From Gemmatirosa kalamazoonensis (GTDB lineage Bacteria; Gemmatimonadota; Gemmatimonadetes; Gemmatimonadales; Gemmatimonadaceae), in NCBI RefSeq assembly GCF_000522985.1, contig NZ_CP007130.1, forward strand, positions 124,001 through 188,000: DNA of 64,000 bases, given 5' to 3'. A program made the position numbers and the translations under genes. Of this stretch, positions 18,653 through 45,900 are shown one piece after another. The notes under the pieces were generated by a model that worked only from the letters and a program-made list of their open reading frames with translations, was not told where the DNA came from and searched no databases. Numbering within the stretch: position 1 is the first letter of the stretch; each line of letters starts with the position of its first letter.

Positions 18653-19210
18653 GATTCGCCTTTGAAATGAGTTAGGCTGGCGTTAGGCACTCGCCGCGGC
18701 ACAGACGTCCGGGCACAAAGTCCAATACGCCTGTTACGTGCGAGAAGCCGCGCGTTCGCATCAACCTACGCGCGAGAATCCCAACGGGCGCGCTGAGCTA
18801 CCGGCGCGATGCCTAGCGAGCATACCACGAGCTGCTCGCGAGAGCCCGGGCTCTCACGCGTACCACCGGCACAACAGGAGCGGCGCCGCGAGGTCGCTCG
18901 ACTGCCCTTCGCCGACGCGCTTCTTACGGCCGGTGGATGACCACATGAATCGCTCGTGGTGGTTAGACGCTCGATGCCACGGGACATGACCGGCCCCACG
19001 GCGGCTGGCGTGAAATGTCAGGCGCGCTCTGTCTCGATCGCCATGCTCGCGCCGTTAGATGTCCAGGCGCGCCGTGGGATTCGTTCGCACGACGACCGCG
19101 ATCGTCTCACGGGAACCAGAGAACGAGTCGGCTCGGCACGCGAGCTTGTAGATCGCGCTCCAGCCGTACGGCTTCGCCAGGCTGAAGACGCCTAGCTATA
19201 GCTATAATAG
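18653..19210. other. Intergenic region with repeat motifs
   Basis: A 558-bp gene-free stretch. It contains GTTAGGC twice in tandem (18671-18677 and octamer 18681-18688), GCGAGAAGCC at 18740-18749 and TACGCGCGAGAATCC at 18767-18781, and an AT-rich palindrome at its right end. No gene is supported on either strand. Confidence 0.6.
18740..18781 (+). repeat. Tandem copies of the GCGAGAA(G/T)CC intergenic motif
   Basis: GCGAGAAGCC (18740-18749) and CGCGCGAGAATCC (ending 18781), 20 bp apart. Both belong to an intergenic motif family also found at 21720, 22654, 22698, 36422, 39692, 39731 and 42556. CGTTAGGC lies 51 bp upstream. Confidence 0.6.
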
Positions 19211-19217
19211 CTAGCGT
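19191..19217. terminator. AT-rich hairpin at the end of the serine hydrolase gene
   Basis: GACGCCTAGCTAT and ATAGCTAGCGTC can pair with one bulge around a short AT-rich loop. The TAG stop of the leftward gene lies in the right arm. It also contains TATAAT (19203-19208), a perfect -10 hexamer on the plus strand, but no -35 is visible. A terminator is the simplest reading. Confidence 0.5.
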
Positions 19218-20620
19218 CGCCCACTGGAGACGCGCCGTGCCGTCATCGCGCGCCGCCCGTCGCTCCACGCGAGCGCGCGTACGCTGGCCGACCCGTCACG
19301 CCGGAACTCGAGCGTGAGCGGTGTCGCCCCGCGTGCCGGCAGCCCGACGAAGCGCAGCGGCCCCACGGGGAAGTACATCGTCTCGCGCGGCAGCGAGTCG
19401 GCAGCGGCGACGTACAGATATCCCTGGCCGGTCGCGGCGCGCAGCTCCACGGCGCCGCCCGCGGCAGCCTCGTACCGGCCGGCGAGTGCGGCGAGTGCGC
19501 GGTCGCCTAACGGCGTCACCCGCGGCGGGAGCGGCAGCGGCGTCTCGCCCAGCGCGAGGCGCGTGAGCCCCTCGTTCAACAGGTCGCGCCACCGGTGGCG
19601 CCGGTCGTTGTTGACCCAGACGATCACGACGTCCTGCCGCGGGTAGTGCAGCAGCTGCGAATGGAAACCCGGCGTGTCGCCCCCCTTCGAGACCACCGGC
19701 GCGCCGTTCCGCCCGTGCGGCTCGTAGCGCCACCCGTACGCCTCGGTGGCCGTGGAGTCGAGGAGTCGCGCGCGCTGGGCGGGGGGCAGCAGCGTCTCGC
19801 CAAACAACGCCACGTGCCAGCGGTACACGTCGCCCACCGTGGCGATCCAGCCGCCGGCGCCGCGGCTGCCCCAGACGAGCGGGCGATCCGGCACCAACTC
19901 CGGTGGGTGCCCTGGCGCGGCGACGTAGCCGCGTGCGCGCCGACGGGCCCACGCGGGCTCCCAGCTGAACGCCGCATCGATCCCGGCCGGGCGCAGCAGT
20001 ACGTCGCGCACGTAGTCGGCGTACGGGCGCCCCGACGCCTCCTCCACGATCGCCGCGAGCAGGCTCACCCCCGCGTTCGTGTAGCGGTACCGCTCCCCCG
20101 GCGCGCTCTCTGCCGGCGTGTCGCGCATCTGCGTCATGAAGACGCGGCGGCTCGTGTCTCCGACCGGCGCGCCGTCCGCAACCAGCCCCGAGGTGTGCTT
20201 GGCGAGGTGCTCTACCGTCGCCCCGGCCTTCGACGGCGGCATCGGCCCGAGCCAGCGAGAAAGCAGGTCCGTGGTGGAGAGCCGTCCTTCCGCCTCGAGC
20301 GCGAGGACCGCCGCTCCGGTGAGCGTCTTCGTGATCGACCCAAAGTCGTAATAGGTCGTCGGGCCGTTGGGCACACGCGCCTCGCGATCCGCCCACCCGT
20401 AGCCCTTGAGGAGCACCACCGCGCCACGTCGCACCACGAGCGCCGTGCCTCCGTAGCCGTACTCGGCGTAACGTTCGAGCAGGCTGTCGAGCCGGGCGCC
20501 GAGGGCACCGGCGACCACCGTGGTATCTAGCCGGGGAGGCACCGGCCCTGCCGCATGCTGGGCGCGTGCGGCGACCGGGAGTGAGAGCAGCGACATCGCT
20601 GCGAGTGTGCGTGAACGCAT
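19211..20620 (-). CDS. Secreted serine hydrolase, class C beta-lactamase fold
   Basis: A 469-residue exported enzyme. A signal peptide (RSRTLAAMSLLSLPVAARAQ) suggests cleavage after ARA. The SxxK motif is in FGSITKTLTG, with the nucleophilic serine near residue 100, and the YxN motif is in RYRYTNAGVSL. The late HxG-type position reads SKGGDTPGFHS. A C-terminal domain of about 110 residues follows. Such proteins are esterases, D-aminopeptidases or peptidases rather than true beta-lactamases; the substrate is unknown. The ATG at 20620 gives a clean signal peptide; a TTG at 20644 is less likely. Downstream of an AraC regulator on the same strand, 144 bp away. One of three such hydrolases in the window. 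Confidence 0.85.
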   Translation of the reverse strand: MRSRTLAAMSLLSLPVAARAQHAAGPVPPRLDTTVVAGALGARLDSLLERYAEYGYGGTALVVRRGAVVLLKGYGWADREARVPNGPTTYYDFGSITKTLTGAAVLALEAEGRLSTTDLLSRWLGPMPPSKAGATVEHLAKHTSGLVADGAPVGDTSRRVFMTQMRDTPAESAPGERYRYTNAGVSLLAAIVEEASGRPYADYVRDVLLRPAGIDAAFSWEPAWARRRARGYVAAPGHPPELVPDRPLVWGSRGAGGWIATVGDVYRWHVALFGETLLPPAQRARLLDSTATEAYGWRYEPHGRNGAPVVSKGGDTPGFHSQLLHYPRQDVVIVWVNNDRRHRWRDLLNEGLTRLALGETPLPLPPRVTPLGDRALAALAGRYEAAAGGAVELRAATGQGYLYVAAADSLPRETMYFPVGPLRFVGLPARGATPLTLEFRRDGSASVRALAWSDGRRAMTARRVSSGRR

Positions 20621-20764
20621 CGTAACGGCCAGGGTGGGAGTCAACTCCCGACCATGCGGCCTGGGCGCAACGTCGTCTTGTACGGATGGAACCTCCGATC
20701 TCGTCTGATCTCGGCGCCCGGCGGGGCTGGACCTCAGTCTAACGAGCGCGGGGAAGACGCCAGG

Positions 20765-21547
20765 TCACCGCGCCGCACCGACGAGCGATCGGTAGGCCGA
20801 CGGCGTCACCCCCGTGGCGCGCCGGAACGTGCGGCACAGGTGCGCGTGGTCGAAAAACCCCGCCTCGCACGCCGTCGCGGCGAGCGGGCGGCCCGCTCCA
20901 GCCGCGGCGCGCGCCGCAGCGCGCTGGAGCCGGAGCCGCTGCGCGTACTCGGTGACCGAGCACCCCACGTAACGGCGGAACTGCCGCGCGAGGTACACCG
21001 GGTGCACCCCGGCCGACGCGGCGAGCTCGCGCACGCGCGGCGTGTCCGCGCCCGCGTCGTCGAGCTTCTCGCGCACCACGCGCAGCCACCGCGGCGCGCC
21101 ACCACGCGCGCCGCTGTCGGCACCGCTGTCGGCGCCGCTGTCCGCCGGCTCGACCAGCGCGGCGAGCACGTCGAACGTCGCGCGCTCCACGGCGTCGCCG
21201 CTGCCGGGGCGACGCGCAAGGCCAAGTAGGCGGAGGAATGGTGGAACCGCCCGCCCTGCATGCTCCCAGCGCCACGTCGCGAGTCGCCGCTCGAGCGCCA
21301 GCAGCTCTGTCCCAGCCGGCTCGTCGAGCAGCACCTGGAGCATGTGCGCCCCCGCGGGCCCGAACTCGTTGGCGTGCTCCGTCCCCGCCGGCTTGACGAC
21401 GACGCTGAGCGCCCGTCCCACCTCGTCGGCGCGTCCCACCCGCTCGCGCACCGCGCCGGCGAGCACGAGCGACACCCCCGTGGTGGCGTGGACGTGTTGC
21501 GGCTGCAGGACGCCCGGCAAGTAGTGCTTCTCGGTGACTTGGATCAT
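20765..21547 (-). CDS. AraC-family transcriptional regulator
   Basis: A 260-residue regulator with an N-terminal cupin-like ligand domain (HYLPGVLQPQHVHATTGVSL) and two C-terminal HTH motifs (RVRELAASAGVHPVYLARQF and ATACEAGFFDHAHLCRTFRR, then TGVTPSAYR). A linker between them contains a short tandem repeat coding SGADSGADSGA. The start was placed at ATG 21547. It precedes the serine hydrolase on the same strand and may control it. Confidence 0.85.
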   Translation of the reverse strand: MIQVTEKHYLPGVLQPQHVHATTGVSLVLAGAVRERVGRADEVGRALSVVVKPAGTEHANEFGPAGAHMLQVLLDEPAGTELLALERRLATWRWEHAGRAVPPFLRLLGLARRPGSGDAVERATFDVLAALVEPADSGADSGADSGARGGAPRWLRVVREKLDDAGADTPRVRELAASAGVHPVYLARQFRRYVGCSVTEYAQRLRLQRAAARAAAGAGRPLAATACEAGFFDHAHLCRTFRRATGVTPSAYRSLVGAAR

Positions 21548-21888
21548 CACAAGTCGTACGCGTGCCCGCACGCGGCTGTTGCGAGGGGGCGGGCTCCTGC
21601 GGTCGCGGCCGTCGCGGCCGTCGCCGCCGCTTCGCCGCCGGACGGGCGATGAGCGAGGAAGCGACGGCTTAAGCGTCGCCCTACGCGCGAAAGTCCGTCG
21701 CGACTGCGTGCACGTGCGCGCGAGAAGCCGAACGTACGACGGGTCGACGCGCGCACGAGAAGCACACGCCGAACGCGTCCAGCCGGCAAGACGGCCCTCT
21801 ACGTTCTGATCCGGGGGCGAAGCGCTGCGGAGAGCCGTTCGGCAGCTACTCTGTGATACACACCGGTCTCAGTTAGGCAGGAGCCCAA
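21548..21888. other. Divergent intergenic region
   Basis: Lies between the AraC gene and the phosphotransferase gene. It contains two to three tandem GTCGCGGCC-like units near 21601-21628, GCGAGAAGCC at 21720-21729, and GTTAGGC 9 bp before the ribosome site of the next gene. No gene is supported. Confidence 0.55.
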
Positions 21889-22623
21889 ATGGGATGGGAG
21901 GCACTCGAGCAGTGGGGTGCCGACGTCGCTCGCATCGAACCGCTCGCTGGCGGAGTCGCCAACGACGTGTGGAGCGTGCGCGTCAACAGGCGCCTGGCGG
22001 TCGGTCGTCTCGGCGCCACGAGCGACCCCGATCTCGCGTGGGAGACCGGACTCCTCCAGCACCTCGACCGTGAAGGTCTGACCGTGCCGGTGCCGATCCC
22101 GACCGCGGACGGCCGGCTGTTCGCCGACGGTGTGGTGGTGATGTCCTACGTGGAGGGTGGACCGCCCCAGACGGCGGCCGACTGGCGTCGCGTGGCTGAC
22201 ACGCTCCACCGGCTGCACCGGGTGACGCGGGGCTGGCCGCAGCGCCCCGGCTGGCGCTCGTCGACCGACCTGCTGCACGCCGAGACCGGGACGAAGATTG
22301 ACCTCGGCGCGATGCCGCCCGAGGGCGTTGCTCGCTGCCGAGCCGCGTGGGCGCGGCTCGTCGGCCGTCAGACCTGCGTCGTCCACGGCAACCCCGCCAA
22401 CCCCGGCAACATCCGCATGACTGCGGGGCGGGTCGCGCTGATCGACTGGGACGAGTCACACGTCGATGTCCCCGACCTCGACCTGGTGCTGCGCCACAAC
22501 GCCGCCGGTCTCGACGACGCCGCGCACGACGTCGCTGCGCAAGCGTCGGCCGCATGGGAAGCCGCCGTCTGCTGGGGCGACGCGTACGCCGTCAAACGGC
22601 TCGCCGACGTTCGAGCGGTCTGA
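21889..22623 (+). CDS. Aminoglycoside-phosphotransferase-like kinase with altered HGD motif
   Basis: A 244-residue protein of the APH/choline-kinase-like fold. EPLAGGVANDVWSVRVN is the nucleotide loop, SYVEGGPP the hinge, and ALIDWDESHVDVPDLDLVL the metal-binding DFG-equivalent region. The catalytic loop reads VHGNPANPGN: the usual HGD has asparagine in place of the catalytic aspartate, so kinase activity is uncertain. The sequence style resembles actinobacterial relatives, a hint of transfer. AGGAG lies seven bases before the ATG, and GTTAGGC 9 bp further upstream; GCCTAACG occurs 54 bp after the stop, so the gene is framed by oppositely oriented octamers. No resistance function should be assumed. 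Confidence 0.8.
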   Translation: MGWEALEQWGADVARIEPLAGGVANDVWSVRVNRRLAVGRLGATSDPDLAWETGLLQHLDREGLTVPVPIPTADGRLFADGVVVMSYVEGGPPQTAADWRRVADTLHRLHRVTRGWPQRPGWRSSTDLLHAETGTKIDLGAMPPEGVARCRAAWARLVGRQTCVVHGNPANPGNIRMTAGRVALIDWDESHVDVPDLDLVLRHNAAGLDDAAHDVAAQASAAWEAAVCWGDAYAVKRLADVRAV

Positions 22624-23049
22624 GCGCAGAATGCCGCGATAGGCGCTCTACTCGCGAGAAGCCAATCATGCGCGCTGCCTAACGAGCCGTGTTGACGTAC
22701 GCGCGAGAATCCGATCGTACGTACGTCGAACCGCGCGACACGTCAGATGCTCACCGCGCCGGCACTGGGCGGATCGCCTGCCGGGCGCTAGCGCGAGGCG
22801 CAGCCGCGTCGCCAACGTGGCTACGCACGTCGTGGCCCCAGGCAGTGCGCGCATGCGGGCCACGATGTTTTTCCGGTACCCAGGCCAGACGCGCCGCCCC
22901 GCGCCACAGCTCCGCGATCGTGCGCGCGGAATCGAAACGCCCGAAATCGCGCTGCGCTCGCGAGTCTCGGTGCGCGCAAACGACCGGACGTGTTCGCCGC
23001 GACAGCACGGAGTGGACTGTCGACGCCCGACATCGAATGACACTACGAT
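22624..23049. other. Intergenic region between convergent genes
   Basis: A 426-bp region with the composite repeat at 22654-22712 and no supported gene. The open frames are Arg-rich on both strands. No strong hairpin was found. Confidence 0.5.
22654..22712 (+). repeat. Composite intergenic element with octamer
   Basis: GCGAGAAGCC (22654-22663), 13 bp, GCCTAACG (22677-22684), 13 bp, then TACGCGCGAGAATCC (22698-22712). The same order, GCGAGAA(T/G)CC followed 13-15 bp later by GCCTAACG, occurs at 36422, 39731 and 42561. Confidence 0.65.
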
Positions 23050-24300
23050 TCAGGTGTTCGAGGGCAAGTACTCGTGATGCGGCTGCAGCAGCGTCACCAG
23101 CGCCGCACCCGCGAGTAGGATCGGCGACAGCCAGAGACCCGTAGACAGCCTACCGGCGCCGTCGGAGAGCAAGCCGGAGAGCATCGGCCCGGCGCTCTGC
23201 CCGGCAGCGAACGCCGTCGTCAACCCGGCGATGCCCGCCGTCCACGCGTGCGGCGCGAGGCTCCGCCGACTCAGTGCCGTGACCGCGGTCGGTCCCGCCA
23301 TGAAGCTGCCGCCGAAGATCACCGCGGACGCGAAGGCCGCCGCCGCGCCGGGCGCGACGAGCACCGGGATCGTGCCCACCAGCGCCACGGCCGAGACGAG
23401 TGCCAGCCCGCGTCCGCCGCGCACCCGCGCGAGTAGCGGCCCCCACGCGAGCGTCGAGACCACAGACGCGACGCCCAGCACCAACCAGAAGGCGACGGTG
23501 ACCCAGGCGGCGAGGTGACGCGCCCGCAGCAGCGCGATGACGAACGTCATGTAGCTCACGTAGCCCGCGCCGAACAGGAAGTAGCCGCCGAACGTCGCGC
23601 CGAGTCGCGCGATCTCTCGCCGCGACAGCGCGGCGGTGCCGGCGTGCGCGTGCTCCGGCGTGGCCTTCGCCGCCAGCCAAGCCGGCGGCAGCGCGAGCAG
23701 CGAGAGGACGCCTAACAAGAGCCAGCCACCGCGCCAGCTCCGGTCCTGCGCGAGCGCCACGGGTACCGCGAGGCCTGACAGGACGATGCCGATCCCCACT
23801 CCGGCGAAGTACACCGGCAGCAGCGCGGGCTTCACGCGTGAGGCGAGCGAGGATCCCACCACGAACGCCACCGCGGTCGACACGCCGCCGATCGCACGAA
23901 GCAGCACGAGCACGGTGTAGTCGTCGGTCGTCCCGGTGAGCAGCAGTACGAGCGCGCTGATGGCGAGGCTGACGACGAAGGCCTGGCGGATGCCGAACCG
24001 CCGGGCCCACCACGCGGCGGACAGAGCGCCGACGATGTAGCCCGACGCGTTGGCGGTGTTCATGCCGCCCGCACGCGTGTAGTTCCAGCCGAGTGCCTCG
24101 CGCATCGGCGGCAGCAGCAGCGCGTAGGCGAAGCGCGAGAAGCCGAGCGCGATGATCGGCGCGACGGCCAATCCCAACGCGATCAGTAGGTGATGCCGGT
24201 GCTCGCGGTGGTTTCGCGCGTGCTGTGACCCGTGTACGGAGCCGTCCACGTGCGCGGCCGGCACATCGGTGGCTGGGGGAACGTTCGGGAGAGCGGTCAT
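23050..24300 (-). CDS. MFS transporter, YbfB/YjiJ type
   Basis: A 416-residue inner-membrane transporter with about twelve helices. After a polar, His-rich N terminus (HGSQHARNHREHRHH) the first helix reads LLIALGLAVAPIIALGFSRF, followed by AYALLLPPMREALGW, matching the YbfB/YjiJ group of uncharacterised MFS proteins (GxxFARFAYxxxLPxM pattern). The substrate is unknown. The ATG overlaps the stop of the preceding gene as ATGA, so the two are translationally coupled. A TTAGGC leucine-glycine codon pair occurs near 23711. Confidence 0.85.
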   Translation of the reverse strand: MTALPNVPPATDVPAAHVDGSVHGSQHARNHREHRHHLLIALGLAVAPIIALGFSRFAYALLLPPMREALGWNYTRAGGMNTANASGYIVGALSAAWWARRFGIRQAFVVSLAISALVLLLTGTTDDYTVLVLLRAIGGVSTAVAFVVGSSLASRVKPALLPVYFAGVGIGIVLSGLAVPVALAQDRSWRGGWLLLGVLSLLALPPAWLAAKATPEHAHAGTAALSRREIARLGATFGGYFLFGAGYVSYMTFVIALLRARHLAAWVTVAFWLVLGVASVVSTLAWGPLLARVRGGRGLALVSAVALVGTIPVLVAPGAAAAFASAVIFGGSFMAGPTAVTALSRRSLAPHAWTAGIAGLTTAFAAGQSAGPMLSGLLSDGAGRLSTGLWLSPILLAGAALVTLLQPHHEYLPSNT

Positions 24301-24608
24301 GGCCGCATCCCTCGCAGACGCGCCGCGGTCCACTGCCCGCGCGAGTGCTCCTCGAGGAGGAACGAAAGGGCGTCTTCGACACGCGCGGCCGAAACGCCCG
24401 CGTTGGACGCCGCGGCGGCGTATGAGCGTGCGGCTTCGCGCACGGCGGCAGGTTCATGCCGCTCGGCGAGCACTGAGATCAGGCCGCGAGCCCGGTCGAA
24501 GACCGTGCGGAACGCGGCGGCTACGTGCGGTTCGAGTGGCTGATCACCATCATCCCGGCGCCACGAGGGCGCTCGGCGTCGCATGGGTCGCGTGTCGTGC
24601 AGAGACAT
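24297..24608 (-). CDS. Small hypothetical protein coupled to the MFS transporter
   Basis: A 103-residue mostly helical protein (AAFRTVFDRARGLISVLAER, VEDALSFLLEEHSRG). The start at 24608 has AGGAG eight bases upstream. The stop overlaps the transporter ATG (ATGA). Unknown function; no membrane segment or recognised domain. Coupling suggests a role tied to the transporter. Confidence 0.65.
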   Translation of the reverse strand: MSLHDTRPMRRRAPSWRRDDGDQPLEPHVAAAFRTVFDRARGLISVLAERHEPAAVREAARSYAAAASNAGVSAARVEDALSFLLEEHSRGQWTAARLRGMRP

Positions 24609-24842
24609 CTTAGGCGCTCCTGGTGTCTTCCGACGGGTGTCGCGCCGACCGCAGAGTCGGCGTGACCCACGTTGCGGAGGCGCTACCCGGAGCGCTTGGC
24701 TGTGCGAGTTGGACGTGCTTGCCTCACTCCCGCCCACCTCGCTCGAACCCTCTCGCGGAAGAGAGACGCGCCGTGCGTCGAGCTCACTGAGCGCAAGTCG
24801 GAGGTCCTGCGGAGACGGTCACCATCGCGCCCCACCGCGGAA

Positions 24843-27769: not shown

Positions 27770-28370
27770 GGCTCGTTCGCGGTGCGCGTAGGCGGCGCGT
27801 GTGGACCGATGAGTTCCACCCCGCGAGGCAGGTTGACCGCCCACCGTTCAAGGTACCGCTGCCATTCGGAAGCGCGAGGTTCCACACGGCCACCGACCAC
27901 CGCTGTAAGCACGGCGTGGCGACGTCGTGTGAGGAGAGAGGGTGCCGGAAGCACCTGTTTCCCGCATCTACCGGCCGAGCAGTCCTGCACTCTCGCGTAC
28001 GAGGTGCACGGCGGTAGCCCGAACGGGAGAATCCCGGCGACCGCTGTGCGTCCGCGCGCTCGTCCGCTCCTCGGGTGTGATCAGGAGCGTGGGTCGTAGG
28101 AAGCGCCCGAGAATCGCTCGCCGGCTGAGAGATGAGGTGTGCGACAGCCGTCGTAGGCACTCGCGCGGGGCACTTGGACACGCTTGCCCGCACTTCGCGC
28201 ACGACGAACGCGACTCGCAAGCGCATCCAAGCCGCGGCGACGACGACTCCGCATGGTCGCTCTCACACCGGGACGCGCATTCCGCGTGGACCGCGAGCGC
28301 GCCAGGCGCATCCAGCCATCACAGCACGTTAGGCGCCGCGCCTCAGTCACCCATGCAGTAAGAGGTACCG
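27770..28370. other. Divergent intergenic region without supported genes
   Basis: A 601-bp region between the transporter and the outer-membrane protein gene. Open frames are Arg-rich and inconsistent. One CGTTAGGC octamer (28327-28334) lies 36 bp before the next start codon. No other strong signal. Confidence 0.5.
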
Positions 28371-28955: not shown

Positions 28956-28995
28956 GCCGAGCACCACGCACGCAACGACGCCAAGACACACGCGT

Positions 28996-30054: not shown

Positions 30055-30060
30055 GGCGCC

Positions 30061-30471: not shown

Positions 30472-32097
30472 TTAGTGTCGCCCTGGCCCCGTTAGGCGCG
30501 CGCGATCGTCGACTCGCGTGAAGGCGTCGTCGTCGAAGAAGCGGAGCTCCGCGGGTAGGGCAACGTCGTCACGGATATGCAGCGAAGGGACTCGGCCGAC
30601 GGGGTCGACGTCGAACGTCACGAGTGTGATCCCCAGTGTGTCCGGTCGGTCGCGCCAGCGCGCGCGGTACGTGTCCCCCGCCCAGTGTTCGAGGTCAACG
30701 ACGAATGCCCCCCACAGGTGCGCCACGAGGCGCCCGTCCTGGCTGGCGACGATCACGTCCCCGTACATCGGGCTCGTGTAGCGCCCCGCGTAGGCGTCGA
30801 GCGGAAGCGTCGCCGTCGTGTGCTCCGGCCGGCGCTGCTCCGCGTCCCGCTTCGCCGCCTCGAGGGCCGACTCGTCCTGCTTCATGCGGGCGAGCAGCAT
30901 CGCACTCCAGTCGCGCGGCGGCGTGCCGAGGTACCCGTCGAGCGCGCGGCGCGCGATCGCCGAAAAGAGCGCGTTGTGCCCGTCGGTGTTGGTGAGTACC
31001 ACGATTCCGAGCCGCTTCTCCGGCACGAACGCGATCTCGGACAGCATGCCGTCGATCCCTCCCGTGTGCCACAACACCTTCACGCCGAGGTAGTCGTACA
31101 TCGCGACGCCAAGTCCGTACGCGCGAAAGTGTGTGGACGGCGACAACGGGTCGTCGGGGCCCGGCGTGATCGTCTGCGGCGATTCGATCTCGCGGAGTGT
31201 CGCGGAGTCGAGCAGGCGCCGCGTCCCGGGCCGGCGGTTGGCGCGGCCGTTCGCGAGCAGGAAGCGGAGCCACCGCGCCATGTCGGCAGCCGACGAAGTG
31301 ATGCTGCCGGCGGGCGCGATGTTGTCAATGTCCCGGTACGGGCGTGGTGTCAGATGCACGCCGTCGGAGAAGTGCGGCGTGGCCACGTTGGCGACGCCGG
31401 CGAGCTCGCCGAGCGACGTGTAACTCGACCGCATGCCGAGCGGCCTGAGGATGCGATCCTGTACGAGCCGGTCCCAGCTGATGTCCGCGGCAGCTGCAGC
31501 GGCCTCGCCAGCGGCGAGCACCATGAGGTTTTGGTAGCCGAACTCCGAGCGGAAGCTGCTGTTCGGCGTGAGGTACCGAACGCGCCGCAACACTTCGGCA
31601 CGGCTACGCGGGGCTCCGTAGGCGATCATGTCGCCGCGTCGTCCCAGTCCGCTGCGGTGCGACAGCAGGTCGCGCACGGTAATCTCGCGCGTGACCCACG
31701 GGTCGTAGAGCTGGAAGCCGGGCAGAAACTTCGTCGCGGGATCGTCCCAGCGCATGCGCCCGTCGTCGACCAGCATGCCCGCGGCGACCGCCGTGAAGAG
31801 CTTCGTGTTCGAGCCGATGGCGAAGACGGTGTTCTCGTCCACCCGATCCGGCTTACCCGCCATACGCACGCCGAAGCCGCGCGCGTAGACGACCGAGTCG
31901 TCTTTGACGACGGCGACCGAGACACCGGCGATGCCCCAGTCTCGCACCGCGTGTTCGACGTAGGCGTCGAACCCGGCGAGTGGAGCGGGCGTACGTTGCG
32001 CGGGGAGCGGGGCGCTGGCCGACACCTGCAGCAGGACCCCGAGCGCCGCCATGGGCGTGAACGACTTGCGCTCGGTCCGTCGAACGTTCTCTCGCAT
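30472..32097 (-). CDS. Exported serine hydrolase with C-terminal DUF3471-like domain
   Basis: A 541-residue beta-lactamase-fold hydrolase. The signal region reaches APLPAQ. SxxK is in IGSNTKLFTAV and the YxN-equivalent in FGYQNLMVLAAG; WHTGGIDGMLSE is the HxG region. A C-terminal lipocalin-like domain (YAGRYTSPMYGDVIVASQDG, then LRFFDDDAF) is typical of DUF3471. The ATG at 32097 was chosen over an upstream one because GGAGGAG lies seven bases before it. The substrate is unknown; such enzymes include D-aminopeptidases and esterases. Confidence 0.87.
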   Translation of the reverse strand: MRENVRRTERKSFTPMAALGVLLQVSASAPLPAQRTPAPLAGFDAYVEHAVRDWGIAGVSVAVVKDDSVVYARGFGVRMAGKPDRVDENTVFAIGSNTKLFTAVAAGMLVDDGRMRWDDPATKFLPGFQLYDPWVTREITVRDLLSHRSGLGRRGDMIAYGAPRSRAEVLRRVRYLTPNSSFRSEFGYQNLMVLAAGEAAAAAADISWDRLVQDRILRPLGMRSSYTSLGELAGVANVATPHFSDGVHLTPRPYRDIDNIAPAGSITSSAADMARWLRFLLANGRANRRPGTRRLLDSATLREIESPQTITPGPDDPLSPSTHFRAYGLGVAMYDYLGVKVLWHTGGIDGMLSEIAFVPEKRLGIVVLTNTDGHNALFSAIARRALDGYLGTPPRDWSAMLLARMKQDESALEAAKRDAEQRRPEHTTATLPLDAYAGRYTSPMYGDVIVASQDGRLVAHLWGAFVVDLEHWAGDTYRARWRDRPDTLGITLVTFDVDPVGRVPSLHIRDDVALPAELRFFDDDAFTRVDDRARLTGPGRH

Positions 32098-33115: not shown

Positions 33116-33207
33116 GTTGCACCGGGCAGATTGAGGTTGCGGCCATACTGGCCTAACGCTGATGTCCTCGCTTGCACCGACTTGCCTCACCCCAGCGCGC
33201 GCGTCGT

Positions 33208-34209: not shown

Positions 34210-34335
34210 GGCGCTCCCCGGATCGCCGTCCACGACGGCGGCCTAACGACCGGAAGAGCCCTCGCCCGTTGCGCGGGCCTGCGGTCGACGGGCGCAGGTT
34301 ACCGGTGAGCGGCCCTCGCTCGCGTCTGTCCGCAG

Positions 34336-36263: not shown

Positions 36264-36452
36264 CGCCATCGCACTTCGACGCGCTGATCATCGGGTCGGG
36301 CCAGGCGGGTACGCCGCTCGCCGTTGCCCTCGCGCGCCGGACGCCGCACCGCCCCGGTCGAGTGCTCCCAGGTCGGCGGCACGTCTGTTAACGTCGTCTG
36401 CAACCCGACGAAGACGAACATGCGAGAATCCGCACGGGCGCGTGCTGCCTAA
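36260..36452 (+). pseudogene. Remnant of an FAD-dependent disulfide oxidoreductase
   Basis: The first 43 codons (MTPSHFDALIIGSGQAG, then TPLAVALARR) encode the dinucleotide-binding start of a mercuric-reductase-like flavoprotein, but stop near 36391. Another frame continues the family pattern as VGGTSVNVVCNPTKTN, where relatives carry GGTCVNxGCxPTK; the first redox cysteine is serine here. The reading then runs into a GCGAGAATCC-GCCTAACG element and ends on TAA inside the octamer. Truncated to about 60 codons and frameshifted. Its ATG overlaps the esterase stop. Confidence 0.85.
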
Positions 36453-36454
36453 CG
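36422..36454 (+). repeat. Composite intergenic element at a gene breakpoint
   Basis: GCGAGAATCC (36422-36431), 15 bp, GCCTAACG (36447-36454). It falls exactly where the oxidoreductase remnant loses similarity to its family. Confidence 0.65.
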
Positions 36455-36705: not shown

Positions 36706-38232
36706 ATGCGCAGCGGTACGATCGCACGCGCGCTGGTGTTGGCATCGCTCGCTCCGCCGCTCGCTGGGCCGGGTGCGGAGCGCGTCGTGCGCGACTCGAG
36801 CACGGCCGGCCCGGCGACCGTTTCGGTGTTCGTCGGTACGCGCCGCGCGACCCCGCTCGCCCCCGCGCTCGCGGGCTACAACGTCGCACTCATGGGCGTC
36901 GCGCTCACGTATACTGACCGCGATCTCGCGGCGGCGGCGCGCCGACTCAGCCCGGGGTGGCTCCGCTACCCCGCCGGCACGCGCGGCGAGGCGTTCGACT
37001 GGCGGACGGGACGCAGCCATCAGGCGTGGGTCGACGCCGTGACCGGCACGGTCGGGCCGGCCGACCGGCCGTTCTTCCGCGACATGCTCCAGAGCGCGCT
37101 CGTGGCGCTCGAGGCGAAGGGGGGCGAGCGCGTCGACGACGCGGCCGCCTTCGCCCGCGCGGCCGGGGCGCGAGGGCTCGTGGTCTGCGTGAACGTCTAC
37201 AGCGACACACCTGCGTCGGCAGGCGACTTCGCCGGCTACGCGCGTGCGCACGACATCCGCGTGCTCGCGTGGGAGCTCGGCAACGAGCCGTACTTCAACC
37301 GGCGCCGCTTCGCGACCGGCGCCGCGTACGCCGCCGCGATGCGCCCGTTCGCCGAGGCGATCCGGCGCGCGGATCCGACGGCGACCGTCGCCGTCTCGAT
37401 GAGCGACGCTGGCTTCCAGGACCACGCGTGGGACGACGCGCTCGGCGCGTTCCGGCCGCGCTACTGGGACGCGGTCGTGTACCATCACTACCCGACCGTG
37501 TCGGGCGCGCCGGCGCGCATGATGGCTGCGCTGAACGGCGTGCTCGCCGACAATACCTCGGCGTACGTCGAGCGCGAGGTGCGCCCGCGCTTCGGAGCGA
37601 TGCCGGTGATGATCACCGAGAGCGGCCCGCAGGACGGCCCGGCACCCGGCATGTCGGGCACGCTGTACGGCGGCATCTGGTCCGCCGAATACGCGCTGCG
37701 CGTGTCGGGGCTCCCGCAGGTCACACGCTTCGGCGTGCACCAGCTGGTCGGTCCCGCCGGCGTGGTCGGCGGCGAGGCCACCGGCGTTTCCGCCCGGCGC
37801 GGCGCGCTCACCACCAGCGCGCAAGGCGCGGCCTACGCCGTCGCCGCGTCGGCCATCAACTCCGCGAGCGGCGTCTACGCGACGCACGTGGAGGGCGGCG
37901 GCACGGTGCGCCGCGACGGCGATCACGGTGCCGACATGGCGATGCCCGCCGTGTACGCGCAGGCCTATCGGCGGCGCGACGGCGACGCGGTCGTCGTCAC
38001 CAACAAAGGGCCGCGCGCCGAGGTGCTCGCACTCGTCGTCGACGGACGGGCCGTCGCGTCGTCGCTGCGCGTGCTCACCGTCACCGGGCCGTCGCCGACC
38101 GCGAGCAACCGACCCGGGCGCGAGCGCGTGACGGCGACGACGTCGGTCGCGTCCCGCACGGTGCGCATCCCGCCGTACGCGGTGGTGGAGATCGTCTGGG
38201 GCGCGGCGAGGGGAATCGATAAGACACGTTAG
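36706..38232 (+). CDS. Secreted clan GH-A glycoside hydrolase
   Basis: A 508-residue exported enzyme. The ATG at 36706 has AAGGA upstream and begins a signal peptide (GTIARALVLASLAPPLAG). The fold appears to be a (beta/alpha)8 barrel: the acid/base glutamate is in AWELGNEPYF near residue 193 and the nucleophile in VMITESGP near residue 305. GWLRYPAGTRGEAFDWRTG at the barrel start recalls arabinofuranosidase (GH51) and GH79 enzymes. A C-terminal beta-sandwich ends in IPPYAVVEIVW. The exact family and substrate are not determined. The stop TAG is part of CGTTAGGC (38227-38234). Confidence 0.8.
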   Translation: MRSGTIARALVLASLAPPLAGPGAERVVRDSSTAGPATVSVFVGTRRATPLAPALAGYNVALMGVALTYTDRDLAAAARRLSPGWLRYPAGTRGEAFDWRTGRSHQAWVDAVTGTVGPADRPFFRDMLQSALVALEAKGGERVDDAAAFARAAGARGLVVCVNVYSDTPASAGDFAGYARAHDIRVLAWELGNEPYFNRRRFATGAAYAAAMRPFAEAIRRADPTATVAVSMSDAGFQDHAWDDALGAFRPRYWDAVVYHHYPTVSGAPARMMAALNGVLADNTSAYVEREVRPRFGAMPVMITESGPQDGPAPGMSGTLYGGIWSAEYALRVSGLPQVTRFGVHQLVGPAGVVGGEATGVSARRGALTTSAQGAAYAVAASAINSASGVYATHVEGGGTVRRDGDHGADMAMPAVYAQAYRRRDGDAVVVTNKGPRAEVLALVVDGRAVASSLRVLTVTGPSPTASNRPGRERVTATTSVASRTVRIPPYAVVEIVWGAARGIDKTR

Positions 38233-38272
38233 GCACCCGGCGTCACCCTGGTCCGGTCTGCTACTCGCCACG

Positions 38273-39625: not shown

Positions 39626-39725
39626 GCCTAACGCACGGTCATTCAGTGAACCGCGCGCAACGCCGCCTGACGCCCGACGCGCGGGTTGCGCTACGCGCGA
39701 GAATCTCGACGATCGCGCGTTAGGC
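39626..39725. repeat. 100-bp imperfect palindrome bounded by inverted octamers (attC-like)
   Basis: GCCTAACG (39626-39633) and CGTTAGGC (39718-39725) are exact reverse complements. Inside, GCACGGTC can pair with GATCGCGC with mismatches, CGCGCG pairs with CGCGCG, and GCAAC faces GTTGC nearer the centre. The ends fit the integron attC core pattern (RYYYAAC at one end, GTTRRRY at the other) and the size fits an attC site. No integrase is in the window. Confidence 0.5.
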
Positions 39726-39730
39726 TGCCC

Positions 39731-39763
39731 GCGAGAAGCCGAGCGTTCGCGTGCCGCCTAACG
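39731..39763 (+). repeat. Composite intergenic element
   Basis: GCGAGAAGCC (39731-39740), 15 bp, GCCTAACG (39756-39763), directly after the palindrome's right end. Another octamer follows at 39821-39828. Confidence 0.6.
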
Positions 39764-39945
39764 GCAACCGCTCGCCTCGACGCGAGACACCGAATCATCG
39801 AGGTCCCGGTCCCGCGAGACGCCTAACGACAACGACTCCCCGTCCGAATCGCGTCCGCTCCGCGTCGTCCACCACTGCCACCTCGTCGACGTCCGCGGCG
39901 GCAGCGACCGACGCCGGCAGCACGCGGAACTCGAGCGCGATCAGC

Positions 39946-40806: not shown

Positions 40807-40857
40807 GGCGCCTTTTCTTGGGAGGGACGAGGTTCCGGCAGGTGCGCTGCGGAGGGC

Positions 40858-41343
40858 CTATCGGTCACGAGGAGGCGGGAAGCCCGTGGCGTCATACGCG
40901 GGGACGTCGTCGTTCTCCGCCTTGGGGTCGATCACGGTGTTCTGGAAGTGCACGATCTTCCAGACGCCCTCGCGCTTGACCATCGTGAACGACGCTCGCG
41001 TCTTCGCCGCAGCCACCCACGGGTACCGCGGGTCGAGGGACGCTCCGAAATGCAGGGTCGCGACGGCCACCGCCACGTCAGGCGCGATCGACCGGATCAT
41101 CACGGTATCGACGCTGGCGCTGGTCGTAGCAAACATGCCCTTGTGGATCGCGACGTGGCCCTTATAGACAGTCGCCTTGCCGCGCCAATGGTGGCCGACC
41201 ACGTTGATCCACTCCACGTCCTCGGCATCGAGATCGTGCATGGCTTGCATGTCATGCCGAGTCCAGGAGTTCGCGAAGGCGTTCACGATGGCCCGGACGG
41301 CCGATTCATCCTCGGCACTGAGCGCTGGCGGCGTGTTCGTCAT
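40858..41343 (-). CDS. SnoaL/DUF4440-like protein (SgcJ/EcaC type)
   Basis: A 161-residue NTF2-like protein: ESAVRAIVNAFANSWTRHDM, HDLDAEDVEWINVVGHHWRG, and KREGVWKIVHFQNTVI are typical of SgcJ/EcaC-type DUF4440 proteins. No signal peptide. Function unknown; many relatives are annotated as oxidoreductases without evidence. Precedes the cupredoxin gene and is probably cotranscribed with it. Confidence 0.82.
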   Translation of the reverse strand: MTNTPPALSAEDESAVRAIVNAFANSWTRHDMQAMHDLDAEDVEWINVVGHHWRGKATVYKGHVAIHKGMFATTSASVDTVMIRSIAPDVAVAVATLHFGASLDPRYPWVAAAKTRASFTMVKREGVWKIVHFQNTVIDPKAENDDVPAYDATGFPPPRDR

Positions 41344-41497
41344 CTCGGCGTTCGAGGCGCGGCATCCTGAAAGGCAACAGCGGCGCGCACGGCCAACACG
41401 GTTCGCTCCATGAAGAGCCTCCCCGTGCGAGGCTCAGTAGGGAGAGTGGCGAGTCCCGCTGGAGCGAGATAGTAAGAATGCGACGCCCGGCGACGAA

Positions 41498-42343
41498 TCA
41501 GTCGCGGCGCGGGCGGTCGGCCGTCGCGTAGAACGTGTGAAACGCGGGGAGATCGCTGAGGCGCGCGAGGAGTCGCGACGGGGACTCACCCGTGAAGGCA
41601 CGACAGTCGTGAACCAGGTGCATCTGGTCGTAGTAGTCGTGATCCGAGGCGATGCGGCTCCACGCGCGGCCGGGATGCCGGAGCTTGTGATCCAGGACGG
41701 CGTTGAACCGGATGATGCGCGCGTAGAGCTTCGGCGGCACGCCGACGTGCCTCAGGAAACGCCGCTCGAACTGCCGGGTCGATAGCCCGGTATCGCTCGC
41801 CATCGCCGAGACGCGTTGCACACCGTGGCGCGCGAACAGGCCGTTCGCGGCGCACCCGACCGGATCCGGACGACCGTGGTCGCGGAGCAGGCGGATCAGG
41901 TGTGCTTCGGCGAGCCGGATGCGCTCGACAAAGCTCGGAGTCTCGCCGAGCCGCCGCTCGAGCGCCGAGACCTCGGGCCCGATGACGCCGTGCGCGTCGT
42001 ACGCGGCGTCCGCCAGCTCCGTCATGGGGACGCCGAACAGCCGGTGGAAGCCGGACGGCTGGAAATGGATCGTGAAGTGATCGATGCGCCCGAGGGCCGA
42101 CAGGCCGGGTCGCGCGTATGATTGCGGTCCGACCACGACCACACGAGGCGTTGGGTCGGTCTGGCCGGACCCACAGCGAAGGGCGCGATAGCCGTCCGCG
42201 AAGGAGAACGTCAGGAGCTGCTTGGGGCGCGCCGGCAGCGGGATGACGAGCGAGGCCCCGTCGACCCGCCCCGTCGTCATGCCGTACGCCCAGCCGTACG
42301 GCCTCAACACCGCGCTCGGCGGCGCCATTCTCGTCTGAAGCAT
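41498..42343 (-). CDS. AraC-family regulator with DUF6597-like domain
   Basis: A 281-residue regulator. The N-terminal domain (VLRPYGWAYG, VIPLPARPKQLLTFSFADGY, IHFQPSGFHRLFGVPM) matches the sensory domain common in this AraC subgroup, and the C-terminal HTH includes VSAMASDTGLSTRQFERRFL and IASDHDYYDQMHLVHDCRAF. The ATG at 42343 has GGAGGG seven bases upstream; a GTG-type extension to 42424 is unsupported. Ends 154 bp upstream of the SnoaL gene on the same strand. Confidence 0.87.
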   Translation of the reverse strand: MLQTRMAPPSAVLRPYGWAYGMTTGRVDGASLVIPLPARPKQLLTFSFADGYRALRCGSGQTDPTPRVVVVGPQSYARPGLSALGRIDHFTIHFQPSGFHRLFGVPMTELADAAYDAHGVIGPEVSALERRLGETPSFVERIRLAEAHLIRLLRDHGRPDPVGCAANGLFARHGVQRVSAMASDTGLSTRQFERRFLRHVGVPPKLYARIIRFNAVLDHKLRHPGRAWSRIASDHDYYDQMHLVHDCRAFTGESPSRLLARLSDLPAFHTFYATADRPRRD

Positions 42344-42555
42344 ACGCGCCCTCCGCCGGGATCGGTCGAGAGAGGATACGCCCAGACGTTTTCCCGCGCC
42401 ATTGCGCAGGTCGTTCACCACCACCCAGCGCCCGATCGGCCGCCGAGAAGCGTGACGCCGTCGGGTGAGCTACGAGCGAGGGGCCGGAGATCCACGTGAC
42501 GCGGAACGGTGTGCGCTACGCTACGCGAGGCGCCCGACGCACACGCGAGTCGCGC

Positions 42556-42592
42556 TACGCGCGAGAATCCTGTGCTCGCGCGATGCCTAACG
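42556..42592 (+). repeat. Composite intergenic element
   Basis: TACGCGCGAGAATCC (42556-42570), 14 bp, GCCTAACG (42585-42592). GCGCTACGCGCGAGAATC is shared almost exactly with the copy near 39690. Confidence 0.65.
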
Positions 42593-42722
42593 GCCGCGTT
42601 GCGCGATATGAGACGTGCGTCTACTTCCGCAGCGCGACGAGAGTGGTCGGTCGTGTGCACCGGTACAAGGGACGCTACAAGCACCAGGGCCTCTCGTTTT
42701 GGAAGGTGCCGATCGCGGCACC

Positions 42723-42758
42723 GGCCTGAGGCAGGACCGCGGCGGCGCTGCCTCGGCC
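42723..42758. terminator. Hairpin terminator downstream of the ABC-F gene
   Basis: GGCCTGAGGCAG (42723-42734) pairs with CTGCCTCGGCC (42748-42758) with one bulge around a GC-rich loop, 14 bp past the end of the leftward ABC-F gene. Confidence 0.6.
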
Positions 42759-42771
42759 AGCGCTTCGGCGA

Positions 42772-44391
42772 TCAGGACTTTCCGGCGCGACGCGCGCGGT
42801 CCGCCTCCCACTCGACGAACGGGCCGTCGAAGTCCGTGAGGTGCGTGCCGTCGAACGCCCAGACGCGCGTCGCGACCTCGCGCAGGAACGCGCGGTCGTG
42901 GCTCACCAGCAGCACCGAGCCGTCGTAGTCGTCGAGCGCGTCCTCGAGCGCCTCGATGTTCTCGACATCGAGGTGGTTGGTCGGCTCGTCGAGGATGAGG
43001 AGATTCGCGCGGGCGAGCGTCATGAGCGCGAGCGCGACGCGCGCACGCTCGCCGCCGGAGAGCGAGCCAATCTCGCGCAGCACCTCGTCGCCGCTGAACC
43101 CGAACGCGCCGAGGCAGTTCTGCACCGCGCCCCGGCTCCAGAGCGGTCGTTGGTCCTGGATCGCGTCGTACAGCGACTTGCGGAGCGGAAGGTCGGCGAG
43201 GTCCTGGCGAAACCACGCCGCCGTGATCGATCCGCCGATCCTCGCCTGGCCGCTCGCGGGCGGGCGGTCGCCGATGATCGTGGAGATGAACGACGACTTG
43301 CCCGCGCCGTTCGGCCCCACGAGCGCGACGAAGTCGTTCCGCCGCAGCACGGCCGTGAAGTCCTCCACGAGGACGCGACCTGGCACCTCCACCCGCAGGT
43401 CCTGGATCGCGATCACCTGGTCGCCGCCGCGTTCGGCCACTTCGAACTGGAGCGACATCGCGGCCGGATCACCCGGCGGCGGCGCGAGACGCGGCAGGCG
43501 CTCGAGTCGCTTGCGCTTGCCCTTCGCCTGGAACGAGTTGACGCCGGCGATGTTGCGGCGGATGTACTCCTCTTCCTTCTTCACGTACGCGCGCTGCTTC
43601 TCCAGCTCGCGCTCGCGCGACAGCCGTCGCTCGGCGCGCTGCGGAACGAACTGGCTGTAGTTGCCTCGGTACCACTCGCTCGTGCGCGCTTCGACGTGCA
43701 GGATGTGCGTGCAGACGGCGTCCATGAACGCCCGGTCGTGCGACACGACGATGACCGTCTCGCTCGCGCTCTTCAGCCACTCCTGCAGCCAGGTCGTGGT
43801 GTCGAGGTCGAGGTGGTTGGTGGGCTCGTCGAGGAGCAGCAGGTCGGCGGGCGCGATGAGCTGCGCCCCGAGGCCGACGCGCCCGCGCTCGCCCCCCGAC
43901 AGGGACGACACCGGCCGCGTCTTGGACTCTTCGGCGTCGAAGCCCAACCCCTGCAGCACGGCGTCGACGCGCGAGTGATAGACGTAGCCCCCGAGGTCGG
44001 CGAAGCGCTCCTGGTCGCGCCCGAACCGCTCGAGGAAATCGTCCGTGACGCGCTCGCCGAGTTCCCCGAGCTCGATCGCCTGCTCGGCGAGACGTCGTTC
44101 GAGGGCGATCACGTCGCGCCATGCGGCCGCGCCGGCCTCCCACACCGTCGTCGCGCCTTCGAACGCGCGATGCTGGTCGAGTAGAGCGTGCCGGAGCCCC
44201 GGCCTGCGCGCCACGCTCCCGACCGTCGGCGAGAGCTCTCCGGTGATGAGTTTGAAGATCGACGTCTTGCCGGCGCCGTTGCGCCCGATGACGCCCCACC
44301 GCTCGCCCTCGGCGACGGTGAAGGTGACGTTCGTGAAGAGTTCGGTCGCGCCGAAGGAGAGGCCGACGTTCGAGAGCGAGAGGAGGGTCAC
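42772..44391 (-). CDS. ABC-F family ATPase
   Basis: A 539-residue soluble protein with two ABC domains and no membrane segments. Domain 1: Walker A GRNGAGKTS, signature SSLSGGERGR, Walker B LLLLDEPTNHLD. A charged linker (ELEKQRAYVKKEEEYIRRN) is the P-site tRNA-interaction region of ABC-F proteins. Domain 2: GPNGAGKSS, GSLSGGERAR, LLILDEPTNHLD. Such proteins act on ribosomes (translation factors or ribosome protection). The subfamily is not certain. An octamer copy lies on each side (42585 and 44466, inverted). Confidence 0.92.
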   Translation of the reverse strand: MTLLSLSNVGLSFGATELFTNVTFTVAEGERWGVIGRNGAGKTSIFKLITGELSPTVGSVARRPGLRHALLDQHRAFEGATTVWEAGAAAWRDVIALERRLAEQAIELGELGERVTDDFLERFGRDQERFADLGGYVYHSRVDAVLQGLGFDAEESKTRPVSSLSGGERGRVGLGAQLIAPADLLLLDEPTNHLDLDTTTWLQEWLKSASETVIVVSHDRAFMDAVCTHILHVEARTSEWYRGNYSQFVPQRAERRLSRERELEKQRAYVKKEEEYIRRNIAGVNSFQAKGKRKRLERLPRLAPPPGDPAAMSLQFEVAERGGDQVIAIQDLRVEVPGRVLVEDFTAVLRRNDFVALVGPNGAGKSSFISTIIGDRPPASGQARIGGSITAAWFRQDLADLPLRKSLYDAIQDQRPLWSRGAVQNCLGAFGFSGDEVLREIGSLSGGERARVALALMTLARANLLILDEPTNHLDVENIEALEDALDDYDGSVLLVSHDRAFLREVATRVWAFDGTHLTDFDGPFVEWEADRARRAGKS

Positions 44392-44476
44392 GCGGAGGCA
44401 GGCAGAGCGAGCAGGGATGGGTGCCGAGTTCGGTACAGCACGGGAAACCTAGGCCCTCGCGCTCGCGTTAGGCACC

Positions 44477-45514
44477 TCAAGCAGAGCGCCATCCGAGCGC
44501 CGGGGCGACATGCGTGAGGATCGCGTCGATGCAATGCGCGCAGTAGTCGACGCCGAGCTGATTCGGGATCGTCAACAGCAGCGTGTCGGCCTCCGCGATC
44601 GCCTCGTCCTCCCGGAGCTGCGTCACCAGCACGTCTGGCTCGGCTGCGTACGTGCGGCCGAAGATCGCGCGCGTGCGCGCGTCGATCCACCCGACGTGGT
44701 CCTGGTCCTCGTCCCGGTCGCCGAAGTCGCCGAAGTACCGCCGGTCGGCGTCCGTCGTCAGCGCGAAGATGCTGCGGCTCACCGACACGCGCGGCGTTCG
44801 CGCATGTCCCGCCGCCTCGAACGCCGCTCGGTACGCGCGGATCTGATCCGCCTGCTGCGCGTGGAACGGCTGGTTCGACTCGTGATCCTTCAGCGTGGAG
44901 CTCTGGAGGTTCATCCCGAGGCGCGCAGCCCACTGCGCCGTCGCGTTCGAGCTCGAGCCCCACCAAATGCGGTCCCGCAGCCCGGGTGCGTGCGGCTCGA
45001 GGCGCAGCAGCCCCGGCGGATTGGGGAACATGGGCCGAGGGTTGGGACGCGCGAACCCCTCGCCGCGGAGGACCTCGAGGAACGCTTCCGCGTGGCGGCG
45101 CGCCATGTCCGCCTCGGTCTCGCCCTCCGCGGGCCGGTAGCCGAAGTAGCGCCACCCGTCGACGACCTGCTCCGGCGAGCCGCGACTGATCCCGAGCTGC
45201 AGCCGCCCGCCGGCGATGAGATCCGCGGCACCCGCGTCCTCCGCCATGTACAGCGGGTTCTCGTAGCGCATGTCGATCACCGCCGTCCCGATCTCGATCC
45301 GCTTCGTCCGCGCGCCGATCGCCGCGAGCAGCGGGAAGGGCGACGCGAGCTGCCGCGCGAAGTGGTGCACGCGGAAGTACGCCCCGTCCGCGCCGAGCGC
45401 CTCGGCGACGACGGCCAGCTCGATCGACTGCGCCAGCGCGTCCGCCGCCGAGCGCGTGTGCGACTGCGGGGCCGGGGTCCAGTGGCCGAACGACAGGAAC
45501 CCGATGGATTTCAT
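44477..45514 (-). CDS. Luciferase-like (LLM) flavin-dependent oxidoreductase
   Basis: A 345-residue TIM-barrel monooxygenase-like enzyme. FLSFGHWTPAPQSHTRSA, LGADGAYFRVHHFARQLASP and IEIGTAVIDMRYENPLYMAE are canonical first strands; LQLGISRGSPEQ and the WWGSSSNATAQWAA segment line the flavin site. Substrate unknown. GCCTAACG, read on this strand, begins 3 bp after the stop codon. The ribosome site is weak. Confidence 0.9.
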   Translation of the reverse strand: MKSIGFLSFGHWTPAPQSHTRSAADALAQSIELAVVAEALGADGAYFRVHHFARQLASPFPLLAAIGARTKRIEIGTAVIDMRYENPLYMAEDAGAADLIAGGRLQLGISRGSPEQVVDGWRYFGYRPAEGETEADMARRHAEAFLEVLRGEGFARPNPRPMFPNPPGLLRLEPHAPGLRDRIWWGSSSNATAQWAARLGMNLQSSTLKDHESNQPFHAQQADQIRAYRAAFEAAGHARTPRVSVSRSIFALTTDADRRYFGDFGDRDEDQDHVGWIDARTRAIFGRTYAAEPDVLVTQLREDEAIAEADTLLLTIPNQLGVDYCAHCIDAILTHVAPALGWRSA

Positions 45515-45900
45515 CTCGAACTCATCGCGTGCGCGGCGCCATCGGCGCCATCGGCGCGTCGGAATCGGTCCTCATGCGTCACACGGTGGCTGGTGGGCGC
45601 TGTGGTGGCACGGGAGCGCGGCCTCCCCCACGCCACGGTCGAGATACGCCGGCACGAGCATGGAGCGGTGGGTGCAGCTCTGCCGCTGGAGCGATGCGCG
45701 GCTGCGTCGGAAACTATGGCGCCGGGCGAAGTTCGCATTGCCGGCGGCACATGAGCCTACGCGCGCGAATCCGAACGCGCGCCGCTGTCGCTCGGGGCGC
45801 AGCGGGGCGGCGCCGAGACTAGCGGCCAGCAGCCAGGGATCGCAGCATAACGCACCCGCGACCGCGCACCGCCGCTGCTCCCGCGCCCTCCACCTCGACG
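45515..45900. other. Divergent intergenic region
   Basis: A 386-bp region with no supported gene. It holds a variant of the repeat motif (TACGCGCGCGAATCC, 45758-45772). Otherwise only Arg-rich frames are present. Confidence 0.5.

Follow-up and report, generated by a model that had tools for sequence, protein, structure and literature searches.

The octamer GCCTAACG is far over-represented across the genome of Gemmatirosa kalamazoonensis, and we propose, at chances that we regard as about even, that it is a genome-wide self-DNA word acting like a DNA uptake sequence (DUS) or uptake signal sequence (USS). The window analysed here is a stretch of 64,000 nucleotides, bases 124001-188000 of the plasmid C4 (1,040,503 bp), within a four-contig, 7.48-Mb genome; its contigs measure 5,311,527, 1,106,233, 1,040,503 and 20,952 bp, and the published genome of strain KBS708 comprises a 5,312 kb chromosome and elements of 1,106, 1,041 and 21 kb (PMC3974934). 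An initial annotation of the window had described a single small repeat, mobile or RNA-coding, made of the motif GCGAGAAKCC and GCCTAACG. Two different things were merged there, the genome-wide word GCCTAACG and a plasmid motif, CTACGCGCGAGAATCCG: with 37 copies in the window and 4469 genome-wide, the word is not private to the GCGAGAA element, and its strong over-representation beside a motif restricted to the + strand indicates two phenomena. The genome-wide nature of GCCTAACG is not visible from one window alone.

In the window, GCCTAACG is the most over-represented 8-mer, its copies lying on both strands where 1.06 were expected. The genomic total (2194 forward, 2275 reverse) compares with 133 (63/70) for a control with the letters reversed, and the word is found on every replicon at similar density, about one copy per 1.7 kb on the chromosome and the plasmids. 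Local statistics were taken from 864 kb sampled over all large replicons; here again GCCTAACG was the most over-represented 8-mer, with 543 copies against 11 expected from a trinucleotide model. Its one-mismatch neighbours were near expectation, except for GCCTAACA (60 versus 2) and a few others, which look like decay products of the word. The flanks of intergenic copies favoured G at -3 (63%) and C or T at -1 (76%), avoided T at +8 and were slightly richer in A+T at +9 and +10, so that a loose extended form can be written GnY-GCCTAACG-V. The spacing between copies was near random (coefficient of variation 0.96), with no excess of close pairs in the sampled stretches. A full-text literature search returned no description of GCCTAACG as such a genome-wide word.

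The word is held within genes as well as between them. Of the sampled copies, 373 (69%) lay wholly in genes, 126 were wholly intergenic and 44 fell at gene edges, while about 87% of the DNA was coding; genes were predicted with a simple home-made caller, which makes the coding share and the frame counts approximate. Orientation within genes was unequal, with 225 antisense and 148 sense copies, an imbalance on record for both USS and DUS. Two of the four permitted frames dominated, Leu-Gly (TTA GGC) with 206 copies and Pro-Asn (CCT AAC) with 121, the others holding 27 and 19, and as many as 206 of the 279 TTA codons in the sample belonged to GCCTAACG. In relatives rich in the word, all four permitted frames were used.

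We surveyed 394 genomes of the phylum, the relatives being mostly drafts, and found that counts of GCCTAACG are bimodal: a genome carries either about 170-4500 copies or close to none (mostly fewer than 50, with 93 the highest value in between), and the count in word-poor genomes, G021 among them, is usually below that of their own reversed control. All word-rich genomes belong to one order, where they fall in family f1 (genera g1, g6, g12, g20, g21, g26, g29, g31, g34 and g28), in family f2 (g47, g56 and g60) and, with one g40 genome, in family f3. In most of the word-rich f1 genomes sampled, GCCTAACG was the top 8-mer or among the top few by over-representation; in the word-poor relatives sampled, no other asymmetric word was seen in its place. 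Abundance is patchy in Gemmatimonadaceae and its sister family, and mostly all-or-none per genus. The exception is g21, in which G241 has 3 copies against 1586-3754 in its three congeners, a natural test case for loss of the word. On a protein tree of rpoB for 46 genomes, the high/low label requires at least 8 changes, 6 of them forced by well-supported branches, and yet shows stronger clustering than 499 or 500 of the 500 shuffles. At orthologous sites, GCCTAACG stood opposite an ungapped, different sequence in 11 of 11 cases (for instance CCGCTCGGC versus CCGTTAGGC), and the word therefore originates in substitutions, most of them silent or mild, and not in insertions. A search for TACGCGCGAGAAKCC among 85,000 species was uninformative, the matches listed being scattered single hits across all kinds of taxa.

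How such a word might be sown and kept can be outlined from the uptake systems. A DNA receptor of natural transformation would favour fragments that carry GCCTAACG; alleles gaining the word by point mutation would then be over-represented among recombined imports and would spread, and this molecular drive, perhaps together with selection for the uptake of kin DNA, could hold the word at its present density. Both the uptake function and a receptor reading GCCTAACG are inferred from the genomic pattern. Between G020 and G359, the one species pair used for a conservation test (about 94% identical), 22 of 24 copies were intact, compared with 66% of all 8-mers (p 0.004). Several observations weigh against an uptake role. 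The one-mismatch neighbours of the word were kept about as well in the same pair (41 of 47), which makes the conservation test suggestive only. Inverted pairs, the terminator words typical of DUS and USS, are not in excess for GCCTAACG in the sampled stretches, nor is the inverted orientation preferred. The DUS of Neisseriaceae come in dialects, whereas GCCTAACG is identical in two families. Finally, a 21-kb high-copy, phage-like element, contig C1, carries the word as densely as the chromosome does, with 12 copies in 15 kb.

That phage-like element would fit a Chi-like recombination hotspot, at which an enzyme of the RecBCD, AddAB or AdnAB type stops degrading DNA and starts recombining, since Chi often occurs on phages; an over-represented asymmetric octamer, present in and between genes, would suit it too. 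Chi sites, however, usually follow the orientation of replication, and the two orientations of GCCTAACG are equally frequent in the genome, with no consistent polarity along the replicons in 18 samples (the position of the replication origin was not located) and with both strands represented in the sampled stretches of contig C2. Because no replication polarity was seen in these samples, we consider this explanation unlikely. As a separate observation, orientation is skewed at C4:100-400 kb (about 125 forward and 82 reverse by hand count) and not at 400-848 kb. The even coverage of all replicons might also point to a chromosome-organising or segregation protein that binds the word throughout the genome. 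It would be strange for a housekeeping signal to be gained and lost so patchily between close genera, and the known organising sites (KOPS, matS, NBS and parS) are far rarer than GCCTAACG and polar or restricted to domains, so that we find this role quite unlikely. A word tied to DNA methylation, whether of restriction-modification type or like HIP1, likewise a genome-wide octamer and one linked to methyltransferases (PMC4390886), seems very improbable to us: GCCTAACG is not self-complementary, and the published N6-methyladenine (m6A) methylome of G. kalamazoonensis, which does not cover cytosine methylation, holds only RGATCY, ATGCAC and CCAGN7TCA (PMC3974934), three other motifs that make methylation of GCCTAACG unlikely.

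The integron of the same genome offers a different kind of explanation. The 1.1-Mb replicon C3 carries an integron of chromosomal type (845150-857774) with 21 attC sites and an integrase at C3:856836-857774 that scores above the NCBIfam cut-off; two solo attC sites lie at C3:880-882 kb, and a model built from the genome's own attC sites (R2) found 23 attC in C3 at E <1e-10. These sites run GCCTAACGCTGGAGTTCAGC...CTGCAACGAATCGTTAGGC, and GCCTAACG equals the R box of many of them in 8/8 bases. The word could thus have spread as an R box to which the integron integrase binds, providing landing sites, and 13 of the 16 word-rich Gemmatimonadaceae genomes do carry such an integrase (hand count). Across the phylum, integron integrases occur in 157 of 394 genomes, in 17 of the 25 word-rich and in 140 of the 369 word-poor ones (hand count); most genomes with the integrase thus lack the word, while no integrase is seen in 8 word-rich genomes, of which several are drafts. 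Integrase presence does not predict the word, and the integrase as its cause is not supported. Moreover, the R boxes of attC vary (GTC, GCT, ACC, GCC-C) where the genome-wide GCCTAACG does not, and the copies of the word are single and unpaired, without attC in the window or in the plasmid island. We therefore judge the spread of landing sites improbable and treat the match with the R box as an unexplained coincidence that has a small chance of being meaningful. In the 12.5-kb array on C3, all 10 copies of GCCTAACG lie within attC boxes; the DNA between the attC sites has none, where about seven would be expected by density, as would be expected of recently arrived cassettes if the word builds up in resident DNA. 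A coupling of the two systems, in which a transformation receptor tuned to GCCTAACG would preferentially import integron cassettes from any species while the drive sows the word in the host, is a rather slim prospect. If true, it would join attC-guided gene capture to self-DNA recognition, and an identity of GCCTAACG with the attC box that is not coincidence would link cassette capture with natural transformation.

The second phenomenon, the plasmid motif CTACGCGCGAGAATCCG, is of a different nature. About 20-25 copies are present, all on the + strand, non-coding and confined to the 130-320 kb stretch within the 1.04-Mb plasmid, and several of them end in GCCTAACG. The repetition of GCGAGAAKCC reported for the window is real: 9 exact copies compare with 0.72 expected, and none of 100 shuffles reached 9. 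The copies lie where the initial annotation had placed them, and the same goes for the variants at 39697 (GCGAGAATCT) and 45763 (GCGCGAATCC); its view that they are exclusively non-coding holds for nearly all, since one of the exact copies, at 24135 and absent from its list, falls barely within the 5' end predicted for an MFS transporter gene. Scored with a fixed weight matrix (CCTACGCGCGAGAATCCGAA, threshold 12 bits), the first 448 kb of C4 gave 21 intergenic sites on the + strand and 0 on the - strand; an equal intergenic length of C2 and C3 gave 1 (+) and 1 (-), and a Markov model predicts about 2. An iterated version of the matrix strayed into coding sequence and was set aside. As the majority of the 21 sites either contributed to the matrix or carry its motif, strand bias and confinement count for more as evidence. 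When a covariance model built on 16 copies was run over the whole genome, strong matches fell only at C4:142-303 kb, all on the + strand; a small dispersed repeat thus exists on its home plasmid and is not genome-wide. A second cluster of matches, at C4:611-632 kb, was rejected as repeated coding sequence resembling, by eye, that of a nonribosomal peptide synthetase.

The orientation of the motif stays constant while that of the genes changes, and several copies form tandem pairs 32-87 bp apart. GCCTAACG follows six to seven copies at 13-16 bp, among them the four already noticed (13, 15, 15 and 14 bp behind 22654, 36422, 39731 and 42561), and other copies are accompanied by a degenerate or reversed word. 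Within 20 bp behind the 21 copies, about six words stand against about 0.1 expected (hand calculation, taking one word in ~3.4 kb of each strand), a proximity beyond chance. Such a fixed spacing speaks for the single repeat of the initial annotation. On the other side, GCCTAACG occurs in its thousands without the other half, and the plasmid motif has no convincing fold, no Y1 transposase and no copies outside the plasmid region; the single repeat is largely refuted, and we hold it hardly credible. A folded RNA is not supported: z-scores were mostly between -1.1 and 0.7, covariation was within that of shuffles, and the copy at 42561 alone has a hairpin that clearly surpasses its shuffled versions (z -2.5), although a short dyad of at least 5 bp surrounds the motif in 52% of cases versus 18% of flank-shuffled controls. 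Mobility of the REP/RAYT type (repetitive extragenic palindromes with their associated transposase) was rejected, as the Y1 transposase PF01797 is absent from the genome and present in 5 control genomes. An attC nature was rejected too, model R2 giving nothing beyond weak chance matches in the window or the island of C4. The window has no tRNAs and no match to Rfam families.

The neighbourhood of the motif suggests what it may be. A phosphotransferase gene at 21889-22623, flanked by copies at 21720 and 22654, has 83.6% DNA identity to Rhizobium plasmids over its reading frame only, and for a luciferase-like gene at about 44486-45506, likewise situated between motif copies, the best plasmid matches, 78% to Streptomyces and Sinorhizobium, again cover one reading frame only. 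Since these best matches are limited to single reading frames, the region resembles a collection of single-gene imports. We tentatively suggest, while thinking it rather less probable than not, that the plasmid motif marks the junctions produced when an orientation-specific process, recombination or insertion, collected such imports; a protein-binding or regulatory site is also possible. The features of the window are listed in the table.

Copies of the plasmid motif and other copies of the word GCCTAACG in the window
Feature	Position	Strand	Basis
GCGAGAAGCC, first of tandem pair	18740..18749	+	exact motif count, weight matrix
CCTACGCGCGAGAATCCCAA, followed at about 30 bp by a degenerate word, GCCTAGCG	18765..18784	+	weight matrix, 29.4 bits
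Degenerate motif copy GCGAAAGTCC, first of pair	21680..21699	+	weight matrix, 15.6 bits
GCGAGAAGCC, second of pair with 21680 copy	21720..21729	+	exact motif count, weight matrix
Composite GCGAGAAGCC - 13 bp - GCCTAACG	22654..22684	+	motif and word counts, spacing
Plasmid motif GTACGCGCGAGAATCCGATC	22696..22715	+	weight matrix, 28.8 bits
Composite GCGAGAATCC - 15 bp - GCCTAACG	36422..36454	+	motif and word counts, spacing
Composite, word reversed: GCGAGAATCT, then CGTTAGGC at 39718	39697..39725	+	coordinate check, spacing
Composite GCGAGAAGCC - 15 bp - GCCTAACG	39731..39763	+	motif and word counts, spacing
Composite GCGAGAATCC - 14 bp - GCCTAACG	42561..42592	+	motif and word counts, folding
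Variant GCGCGAATCC	45763..45772	+	weight matrix, 27.1 bits
GCCTAACG	564..571	+	word count in window
GCCTAACG	862..869	+	word count in window
GCCTAACG	4090..4097	+	word count in window
GCCTAACG	6275..6282	-	word count in window
GCCTAACG	8011..8018	-	word count in window
GCCTAACG	9139..9146	+	word count in window
GCCTAACG	12773..12780	+	word count in window
GCCTAACG	14060..14067	+	word count in window
GCCTAACG	14557..14564	-	word count in window
GCCTAACG	18218..18225	-	word count in window
GCCTAACG	18681..18688	-	word count in window
GCCTAACG	19505..19512	+	word count in window
GCCTAACG	28327..28334	-	word count in window
GCCTAACG	30490..30497	-	word count in window
GCCTAACG	33151..33158	+	word count in window
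GCCTAACG	34241..34248	+	word count in window
GCCTAACG	38227..38234	-	word count in window
GCCTAACG	39626..39633	+	word count in window
GCCTAACG	39821..39828	+	word count in window
GCCTAACG	44466..44473	-	word count in window
GCCTAACG	47524..47531	+	word count in window
GCCTAACG	50470..50477	+	word count in window
GCCTAACG	51186..51193	-	word count in window
GCCTAACG	52149..52156	-	word count in window
GCCTAACG	52830..52837	-	word count in window
GCCTAACG	53433..53440	-	word count in window
GCCTAACG	56490..56497	+	word count in window
GCCTAACG	59120..59127	+	word count in window
GCCTAACG	59307..59314	-	word count in window
GCCTAACG	62931..62938	+	word count in window
GCCTAACG	62994..63001	+	word count in window
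GCCTAACG	63671..63678	-	word count in window

Other repeats and remnants were seen on the same plasmid. At window positions 36264-36440 there is, by eye, the truncated start of a disulfide oxidoreductase dependent on flavin adenine dinucleotide (FDALIIGSGQAGTPLA), which breaks near the motif at 36422, so that part of this copy may descend from coding sequence. Dispersed inverted repeats of ~150 bp, with arms of GGACTGAAGRAGGACTGAAG runs inside CACGTACGTGGAG ends, are located at C4:44129, 63164, 81297, 93838 and 102064, and several other long hairpins of C4 are made of short repeated units. A palindromic element of ~85 bp (GGCGAGTACTCTGGGGATCC...GATCTCGAGATC...GGATCCCCAGAGTACTCGC) is present three times, at C4:54729, 344746 and 411995, and a non-coding duplication of 387 bp (C4:222717 and 246496, 86% identical) starts with GAACGCGAGCAAnCnGCGC-GCCTAACG and has a hairpin at its end.

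To our knowledge, DNA uptake signals are established only in Neisseriaceae and Pasteurellaceae, two families of Pseudomonadota, and GCCTAACG would, as far as known, be the first DUS/USS-like word outside them. A word that has their genomic signature but belongs to another phylum, and that genera have gained or lost again and again, offers many natural comparisons that bear on how uptake words start, spread and decay, and on whether word or receptor precedes. The likeness to DUS and USS is that a short asymmetric word recurs thousands of times, on both strands, genic and intergenic with an intergenic excess and without replication polarity in the samples taken, and that it is specific to a clade and held in coding sequence through codon choice. 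In H. influenzae, 65% of USS lie in open reading frames where 86% of the DNA is coding, which is close to the genic share of GCCTAACG, and one orientation is favoured in genes in the absence of a general orientation bias (PMC2346458), an inequality also seen for GCCTAACG. The phylum and the sequence of the word differ, and its receptor is putative. With Chi, the word shares the over-represented asymmetric octamer but not a clear orientation bias along the sampled replicons; with HIP1 of cyanobacteria, it shares a singularly over-represented octamer, patchy among genomes, but HIP1 is palindromic and methyltransferase-linked, whereas GCCTAACG is asymmetric and outside the published m6A methylome. 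To attC it is alike in that GCCTAAC(G) is the outer box of the genome's own sites; attC boxes, however, are paired, degenerate and set in hairpins, while GCCTAACG is single, strict and mostly genic.

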